In this document: one piece after another, positions 21,293 to 21,877 of the stretch
Numbering within the stretch: position 1 is the stretch's first letter
How the letters are laid out: the number at the start of each line of letters is the position of its first letter
Source: Candidatus Kuenenbacteria bacterium
Lineage (GTDB): Bacteria; Patescibacteriota; Patescibacteriia; UBA2196; GWA2-42-15
Direction of reading: 5' to 3'
Assembly (NCBI GenBank): GCA_012797775.1
Contig: JAAZOM010000027.1
Location: 1-44,100, forward strand
Length of the DNA stretch: 44,100 nucleotides
The notes under the pieces: model-generated
What the model was told of the DNA's origin: nothing
The model's input: the letters and a program-made list of their open reading frames with translations, nothing else
Database searches by the model: none
Translations under genes and position numbers: made by a program

Positions 21293-21363
21293 GGCCTGGT
21301 AGCCAAGCGGTAAGGCAACAGTCTGTGTCTCTACGAGACATTCCTCAAAGAGGGACAAAACTG
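21293..21363 (+). pseudogene. 5' part of a split tRNA-Cys carrying a double-hairpin insertion in its anticodon loop
   Basis: GGCCTGG (acceptor 5' strand), TA, a D arm GCC...GGC and the 5' anticodon stem ACAGT, then CTG, a 30-nt insertion (21326-21355), CAAA and ACTG. The sequence then leaves the tRNA. The matching acceptor 3' strand CCAGGCC is found about 450 bases downstream, in the second part (21722-21866). Without the insertion the anticodon would be GCA (Cys). It may be a decayed gene, or half of a tRNA whose halves are made separately. Confidence 0.75.
21326..21355 (+). repeat. 30-nt double-hairpin element, copy 1 (anticodon loop)
   Basis: Hairpin 1 is TGTCTC-TAC-GAGACA (perfect 6-3-6); hairpin 2 is TTCCTC-AAA-GAGGGA (one mismatch, one G-T pair). 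It is inserted between positions 34 and 35 of the tRNA-Cys-like sequence, directly before CAAAAC. Confidence 0.8.
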
Positions 21364-21379
21364 AATATATAAATTTTGG

Positions 21380-21456
21380 GGTCACGTAGCCAAGTGGTCT
21401 AAGGCGACAGTCTGCAAAACTGTTATTCGCGGGTTCAAATCCCGCCGTGACCTCCA
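21380..21456 (+). tRNA. tRNA-Cys (anticodon GCA)
   Basis: A complete cloverleaf. The acceptor GGTCACG/CGTGACC pairs over 7 bp, followed by TA, a D arm with AAGTGGTCTAA between GCC and GGC, anticodon arm ACAGT-CTGCAAA-ACTGT with anticodon GCA, a 5-nt variable loop, T arm GCGGG-TTCAAAT-CCCGC, discriminator T and an encoded CCA (21454-21456). All helices are perfect. This is presumably the functional tRNA-Cys. Its D and anticodon arms are nearly identical to the interrupted copies on both sides. Confidence 0.95.
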
Positions 21457-21461
21457 GATTT

Positions 21462-21722
21462 ATGTATTATGTTTACGCCCTGCAAAGCTTAAAGAATAGA
21501 AACTGGTTATATATTGGGTATTCTGATGACCTAAAGACAAGAATAAAAACACACAATGACGGCAAGGTAAAATCAACACAATTTTATAGACCACTGAGAT
21601 TGATATATTATGAAGCTTACTTACATAAAACAGATGCGGCCAGAAGAGAATATGAACTAAAACATAGTCAGCAACAAAAAGAATTTCTAAAACAAAGAAC
21701 CAAATTCAGCTTGATATCATAG
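21462..21722 (+). CDS. Small GIY-YIG nuclease-family protein (URI type)
   Basis: An 86-residue single-domain GIY-YIG protein: YYVYALQS at the N terminus and YIGYSDDLKTRIKTHNDG form the GIY...YIG core with the conserved Arg, and the Glu of ARREYELKHSQQQKEF matches the usual metal ligand region. Proteins of this size are frequent in CPR and Bacteroidetes genomes; they nick DNA or are uncharacterised. ATG 21462 lies 5 bases after the CCA of tRNA-Cys, and its stop TAG overlaps the second tRNA fragment. So the gene fills the space between an intact tRNA and the rest of a split one, the context expected of a homing-type endonuclease. An earlier GTG inside the tRNA is unlikely to be the start. Confidence 0.85.
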   Translation: MYYVYALQSLKNRNWLYIGYSDDLKTRIKTHNDGKVKSTQFYRPLRLIYYEAYLHKTDAARREYELKHSQQQKEFLKQRTKFSLIS

Positions 21723-21734
21723 GGCGACAGTCTG

Positions 21735-21764
21735 TGTCTCTACAAGACATCACTCGAAGAGGGA
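21735..21764 (+). repeat. 30-nt double-hairpin element, copy 2 (anticodon loop)
   Basis: Hairpin 1 TGTCTC-TAC-AAGACA (one mismatch); hairpin 2 TCACTC-GAA-GAGGGA (one mismatch). It occupies the same insertion site as copy 1, before CAAAAC, within a 50-nt direct repeat. Confidence 0.78.
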
Positions 21765-21785
21765 CAAAACTGTTATGCGCGGGTT

Positions 21786-21815
21786 TCTCTCTATGAGAGA
21801 TCTCTCAAAGAGCGA
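21786..21815 (+). repeat. 30-nt double-hairpin element, copy 3 (T loop)
   Basis: Hairpin 1 TCTCTC-TAT-GAGAGA (perfect); hairpin 2 TCTCTC-AAA-GAGCGA (one mismatch). It is inserted in the T loop after TT and before CAATT. Confidence 0.8.
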
Positions 21816-21834
21816 CAATTCCCGCCCAGGCCTC

Positions 21835-21864
21835 TCTCCCTACGGGAGATGTCCCTAAGGGACA
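21835..21864 (+). repeat. 30-nt double-hairpin element, copy 4 (3' CCA tail)
   Basis: Hairpin 1 TCTCCC-TAC-GGGAGA and hairpin 2 TGTCCC-TAA-GGGACA, both perfect. It lies between the first C after the discriminator and the following CA, again directly before CAA. Paired changes relative to the other copies keep both stems. Confidence 0.8.
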
Positions 21865-21877
21865 CAATTAAAATTTT

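Follow-up and report, generated by a model that had tools for sequence, protein, structure and literature searches.

The analysed DNA, hereafter the window, is a stretch of 44,100 nucleotides that corresponds to contig C27 of the 930-kb genome of a Candidatus Kuenenbacteria bacterium (G000), a member of the Patescibacteria (CPR). Between positions 21293 and 21866 it holds, in this order, a 5′ fragment of a tRNA-Cys gene (A), a live tRNA-Cys (B), a nuclease gene, and a 3′ fragment (C), with 30-nt double hairpins set into both fragments:

21293..21363, + strand: fragment A, 5′ remnant of the dead, displaced, presumably native tRNA-Cys, reaching to the anticodon arm and bearing one double hairpin; it pairs with fragment C (GGCCTGG/CCAGGCC), and a syntenic fragment exists in G005 (L016)
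21326..21355, + strand: double hairpin 1 (TGTCTC TAC GAGACA / TTCCTC AAA GAGGGA), within the anticodon (G|CA)
21380..21456, + strand: gene B, live intact tRNA-Cys(GCA), 71.1 bits, probably the incoming copy
21462..21722, + strand: ORF of a single-domain GIY-YIG nuclease, 86 aa, UPF0213-like (PF01541 and BH0048 matches, conserved residues in 20 relatives)
21723..21866, + strand: fragment C, 3′ remnant of the dead, displaced, presumably native tRNA-Cys, which starts on the 5′ side of the anticodon arm and runs to the CCA, with three double hairpins
21735..21764, + strand: double hairpin 2, at the anticodon of fragment C, 10/12 pairs
21786..21815, + strand: double hairpin 3, T loop of fragment C
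21835..21864, + strand: double hairpin 4, interrupting the 3′ CCA of fragment C, 12/12 pairs

The initial annotation of this locus had described four 30-nt units directly followed by CAA and, once these are skipped, a canonical tRNA-Cys(GCA) with the acceptor GGCCTGG/CCAGGCC built from the outer pieces. This tRNA does form, the units are present at 21326, 21735, 21786, and 21835, and the letters after them read CAAAAC, CAAAAC, CAATTC, and CAATTA. The insertion sites in the anticodon, in the T loop, and inside the CCA stand as well, but the supposed double use of the anticodon loop reflects two partial copies of one anticodon arm. The double hairpins are real, but their stems pair less well than had been stated: three of the four copies are imperfect—the first two with 11/12 and 10/12 Watson–Crick pairs—and the copies at 21735 and 21786 have a minimum-energy RNA structure other than the two-hairpin form. 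Counting G+C-rich stretches with at least 10/12 pairs, the window contains six stretches of double-hairpin shape vs 0–2 in 15 dinucleotide shuffles. Overlooked were the intact tRNA-Cys (21380–21456) and the GIY-YIG ORF (21462–21722) between the two tRNA halves.

The window ORF matches PF01541 (E=1.7e-13), and its nearest solved relative is the UPF0213 protein BH0048 (PDB 1zg2, E=2.2e-9). It carries the conserved Tyr, Gly, Arg, and Glu of the GIY-YIG domain, as compared over 20 relatives. A small nuclease gene is physically tied to an intact tRNA-Cys, and the pair sits inside a broken native tRNA-Cys.

The host genome yielded 53 tRNA matches, most of them read and typed, and among these gene B alone was recognised as a tRNA-Cys(GCA). 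An odd tRNA-Cys with the anticodon ACA, called by ARAGORN on contig C21 (L072, 3536–3616), is probably a mis-called tRNA and is not counted as tRNA-Cys(GCA). Since the intact tRNA-Cys and the nuclease ORF lie between its halves, the interrupted tRNA-Cys is a displaced pseudogene and not an intron-bearing tRNA. The syntenic place appears in three states. In the genus-mate G001—identified by an upstream neighbour of 70% and a downstream phosphomannomutase-like gene of 26% identity to that of the window—it holds one uninterrupted tRNA-Cys; in the family member G005, with 67% identity of the downstream gene to its counterpart in the window, an intact tRNA-Cys follows a 5′ fragment that bears double hairpins, and the nuclease is missing; and in G000 the full cassette is found. 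The 5′ fragment of G005 bears a further unit in its D loop (GGTAGC|CAAGCGG), for which G000 presents an exact empty site. Comparison of orthologous loci, proposed early on as a way to find empty sites, delivered one; further copies are present in relatives, and the extra D-loop copy indicates that the hairpin is probably mobile. An assembly artefact is ruled out, as the arrangement recurs in independent genomes and the synteny is coherent. The dead A–C tRNA is closer to the G001 tRNA-Cys than the live gene B is (93% vs 86% over the interior of one short gene). By this narrow margin, the resemblance suggests that gene B came in and A–C was displaced.

Arrangements of this kind are seen again across Patescibacteria, involving tRNA-Cys, Glu, Ser, Arg, and others. 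From a search of 286 genomes of the class, 70 of the best-scoring homologs were examined on both sides: an intact tRNA lies within ~150 nt on the same strand in 39 and on the opposite strand in none, and 27 of those 39 loci have a partial copy of the same tRNA nearby. The targets include tRNA-Cys, Glu, Ser, Arg, Leu, Tyr, and Phe. In one group of cassettes, the broken copy bears the 30-nt double hairpin, usually at the anticodon. Such a cassette typically runs from the 5′ part of a tRNA up to its anticodon arm through the double hairpin to the ORF, ~40–67 nt further on, and to the intact tRNA, with the ORF stop inside the tRNA in several cases. The order seen in the window—tRNA-Cys, GIY-YIG, 3′ fragment with double hairpin—returns in G105 (L198). 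Two marks of a homing cassette are found, namely a conserved site (the tRNA anticodon arm, in many genomes) and an empty allele (the uninterrupted syntenic tRNA-Cys of G001).

Other homologs occupy further structured RNAs. At L247, L270, and L261, the ORFs lie between 16–21-nt inverted repeats in genes whose identities, read from sequence, are 16S rRNA, 23S rRNA, and RNase P RNA, respectively; these three loci and L220 share a GIY-YIG ORF that lies in the loop of a structured RNA and is bounded by inverted repeats. Around the window ORF no inverted repeat was found, and it does not class with insertions of the CPR rRNA type. At L249, L257, and L260, in three genomes, GIY-YIG ORFs sit between shared inverted ends (CCCCGTAG..CTACGGGG) and no tRNA was found nearby. 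At L191 and L201 (G049 and G124), an intact tRNA-Cys between inverted repeats is nested in the anticodon loop of a dead tRNA-Cys—three copies appear nested at L201—and the stretches read there showed no nuclease.

The hairpin element is genuine, and its shape defines it: the geometry—a 6-3-6 hairpin twice—is conserved, the sequence hardly. This case stands on the family and not on the four copies of the window, since these are weaker and two of them miss the two-hairpin form. Two surveys of inserts were made in which no hairpin was assumed. The first collected 12–42-nt inserts between the anticodon flanks of tRNA-Cys in 381 genomes, and among the matches judged to be genuine tRNA-Cys copies six inserts measure exactly 30 nt, and single inserts have lengths of 31, 40, and 12 nt. 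The second took any 8–60-nt insert in partial tRNA copies near an intact tRNA, at loci most of which had been fetched for their hairpin, tRNA-Cys, or nuclease; its lengths peak at 30 nt (33 entries, some of them repeats from the same genome). With repeats removed, 24 different inserts of 30 nt are left, 21 of which pair as 6-3-6/6-3-6 with widely varying stems (TCAATC, CTCGGC, TCCGGC, TCAACC, TGTCCC). Over all 24, 254 of the 288 stem pairs are Watson–Crick vs a mean of 153 and a maximum of 191 when the 3′ arms are re-dealt 2000 times, and vs 79–93 with a slid register.

On the nuclease tree, the hairpin follows one branch. The 30-nt double hairpin is present beside 18 of the 20 nucleases on one side of this branch (L097, L120, L122, L133, L152, L242-L246, L248, L251, L252, L255, L256, L262, L265, L337, L339, L348) vs 0 of the 56 others; the support of the branch is modest (71/84). 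Five of these loci (L097, L120, L122, L133, L152) had been fetched through the hairpin pattern, and leaving them out gives 13/15 vs 0/56; L337 was labelled manually on the basis of the insert survey. The hairpin label requires three changes on the tree vs 12–18 in 200 shuffles. In G126, G002, and G089, which have loci of both nuclease kinds, the hairpin accompanies the first kind alone. At the genome level, of the 13 genomes with a hairpin-group nuclease, six belong to the 19 that carry the hairpin (p=0.0005), a count that overlaps with the locus-level evidence. Partial tRNA copies adjoin the other GIY-YIG groups as well, but the 30-nt element occurs in none of their 56 rows.

The element is not confined to such cassettes. 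A search of relatives for the two-hairpin pattern, with up to three mismatches, gave matches in 19 of 192 genomes, whereas the reversed control pattern gave none in the same set, and a single genome holds up to 21 matches. In a collection of 84,980 species, the element marks 70 stretches, nearly all of them in metagenome-assembled genomes titled as CPR lineages or as bacteria without lineage, and one in a genome titled Nanoarchaeota. The dispersed, structure-conserved element with a target preference that the initial annotation had envisaged is borne out, with TTG on one side (the CAA noted before is its reverse complement): TTG directly adjoins 61 of 87 copies from the genome collection vs 4.4% of random positions. 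No target duplication was seen at element copies. Of the dispersed copies, 20/89 lie in or near tRNA-like sequence vs 2.5% of control sites; open frames proved an unreliable guide to which dispersed copies fall in coding sequence, since intergenic DNA is likewise covered by long frames free of stops. No GIY-YIG gene lies near many of the dispersed double hairpins, and several of the genomes concerned have no close homolog of the nuclease. In the viral contigs searched, the element is absent and no confirmed relative of the nuclease was found, only three weak phage matches of ~40% identity. A Y1 transposase (IS200/IS605, RAYT) as mover was considered and rejected: it shows no enrichment (10/19 element-bearing vs 107/173 other genomes, p=0.46), and Y1_Tnp is absent in G000, G005, and G041.

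Taken together, we consider it probable that the locus represents the takeover of a tRNA gene by a homing-type GIY-YIG cassette, which a geometrically defined hairpin element accompanies. The nuclease would cut the tRNA gene at the anticodon arm, and repair would copy in the donor cassette, bringing or rebuilding a working tRNA. As the cassette would supply this tRNA, the host would survive and keep the cassette. Cassettes that lost the ORF would leave a 5′ tRNA fragment with a hairpin upstream of an intact tRNA. With less assurance, the double hairpin may be a small accompanying element that the nuclease mobilises or that moves together with it, and its position at the cut site of the displaced copy might keep that copy dead and protect it from cutting. 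Single-domain GIY-YIG proteins have relatives among the structure-selective nucleases, and as this fits conservation of shape only, the nuclease itself might move the hairpin. The fullest version—a mobile element of two abutting hairpins of 6-bp stems and 3-nt loops, exactly 30 nt long with stems free to change, that is moved or deposited by a structure-selective GIY-YIG nuclease capturing tRNA genes and that silences the displaced copy—is put forward tentatively, as a possibility more doubtful than not. Against the takeover itself counts that it gives no reason for the nuclease to spare the intact tRNA of its own cassette, as does the dispersal of many hairpins in genomes without a close nuclease homolog.

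In a rival reading, the double hairpins represent a small, palindromic mobile element of their own with insertion sites beside TTG, the nuclease being unrelated and dead tRNAs collecting the hairpins since they are free to change and offer TG or TT targets derived from U33. The 70 stretches, the up to 21 matches per genome, the TTG on one side (61/87 vs 4.4%), and a share of merely 20/89 copies in or near tRNA-like sequence—though controls reach only 2.5%—all agree with this. Against it, the hairpin occurs beside one GIY-YIG group (18/20) and in none of the 56 rows of the others, although these too adjoin partial tRNA copies. The geometry is also held while the stems change freely, unlike in a sequence family spread by simple copying, and no transposase candidate is at hand, Y1_Tnp being absent from the host and not enriched elsewhere (10/19 vs 107/173, p=0.46). 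We regard an independent element as unlikely.

Two other explanations give the hairpin a role in RNA. As a regulatory leader of the nuclease mRNA or the downstream tRNA, the 5′ fragment with its double hairpin would act in folding, stability, or attenuation, and its geometry would be selected for that; in 5′-fragment cassettes, the hairpin indeed typically precedes the ORF by 40–67 nt on the same strand, with the ORF stop inside the tRNA in several. The hairpins of the window and of G105 lie downstream of the ORF, however, copies exist in T loops, D loops, and the CCA, and most dispersed copies are outside tRNA-like sequence, which makes a leader very unlikely. The hairpins could further be tiny introns spliced from transcripts of a split but functional tRNA-Cys, an idea already raised as excised intervening sequences in a working tRNA, as the loop insertions leave the tRNA helices intact and a canonical tRNA-Cys appears once they are skipped. 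This reading found no support and is extremely improbable: the host has one intact tRNA-Cys, other genes separate the two pieces in the window, and no intron family matches the window at Rfam gathering scores. A functional tRNA-Phe with a spliced double hairpin (L014, G126), full-length with one unit in the anticodon, was likewise dismissed, since a separate intact tRNA-Phe exists; in neither genome is the interrupted gene likely to be the functional copy.

The takeover reading has partial parallels in known systems. In the mitochondrial ORF360/atp6 case of Allomyces, an endonuclease element supplies a substitute for part of a gene, and the part it displaces stays alongside; this case differs from the window in being mitochondrial and in concerning a protein gene instead of a tRNA. 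Allomyces mitochondrial genomes also hold double-hairpin elements, and by description the fungal mitochondrial type shares two consecutive short hairpins, dispersal, and filled and empty sites with the element of the window. Among bacteria, GIY-YIG ORFs occur in CPR rRNA insertion sequences, in non-intron inserts at the tops or bases of rRNA stem-loops, and their authors doubted a spread of GIY-YIG by homing (PMC11270868). The hosts are CPR in both cases, and homologs of the window nuclease sit in 16S, 23S, and RNase P RNA, but the main text of that study mentions neither tRNA nor hairpin (PMC11270868). SegB of phage T4 is a free-standing GIY-YIG homing endonuclease in the phage tRNA cluster that is reported to favour inheritance of the tRNA region (PMC2988022). 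Like the window nuclease, its gene lies among tRNA genes, but between them and with an intergenic target, and the portion of the source consulted describes neither a split tRNA nor a hairpin element (PMC2988022). In Caldiarchaeum, a 5′ fragment of tRNA-Thr was left by a mobile element, giving, as in the window, a 5′ tRNA fragment upstream of a tRNA with mobile sequence between (PMC3293823); the differences are the archaeal host, the 1.8-kb recombinase-encoding element, and the intron-containing tRNAs. REP/BIME and RPE sequences resemble the hairpin element as short palindromic dispersed repeats that are often paired (PMC3733652). REP/BIME differ by their GTAG/CGTC tags and RAYT transposases (PMC3733652): no REP-type GTAG or CGTC tag was seen at the hairpin foot here, the flanks being TTG/CAA, and Y1 is not enriched. 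A literature search, with most subscription journals outside it, found no tRNA takeover by GIY-YIG cassettes in Patescibacteria and nothing on tRNA in connection with GIY-YIG of Parcubacteria/CPR.

If the takeover is right, a tiny nuclease would repeatedly capture tRNA genes that its hosts, spread over a very large group of bacteria, cannot do without, and carrying or rebuilding a replacement tRNA would make the selfish gene hard to lose. This would account for partial tRNA copies and nested tRNAs in reduced genomes and offer a natural experiment on tRNA-gene replacement—accompanied by a mobile element whose identity lies in its geometry. The unexplained GIY-YIG inserts in CPR rRNA would then join a wider pattern across tRNA, rRNA, and RNase P RNA genes.

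Further inserts were observed at other loci. The host genome itself contains more partial tRNA copies bearing inserts (L040 and L034, on contigs C6 and C29), namely a tRNA-Lys with a 28-nt D-loop hairpin and possibly a tRNA-Ala with an 18-nt insert. D-loop inserts of the form CCCCG..CGGGGCAGG lie in partial tRNA copies at L040/L077, L278, and L288, and double hairpins of ~40 nt in the T loop of such copies at L331, L335, and L345 (GTT|CG..GGG|CGAAT). In Uhrbacteria (L106, L123, L130, L145), the double hairpin stands within a longer repeated context (GTTTGGA.CATTG|unit|GAATTT), and in the genome titled Nanoarchaeota three double hairpins follow each other in tandem with a 7-nt spacer (L134, 7007–7110).
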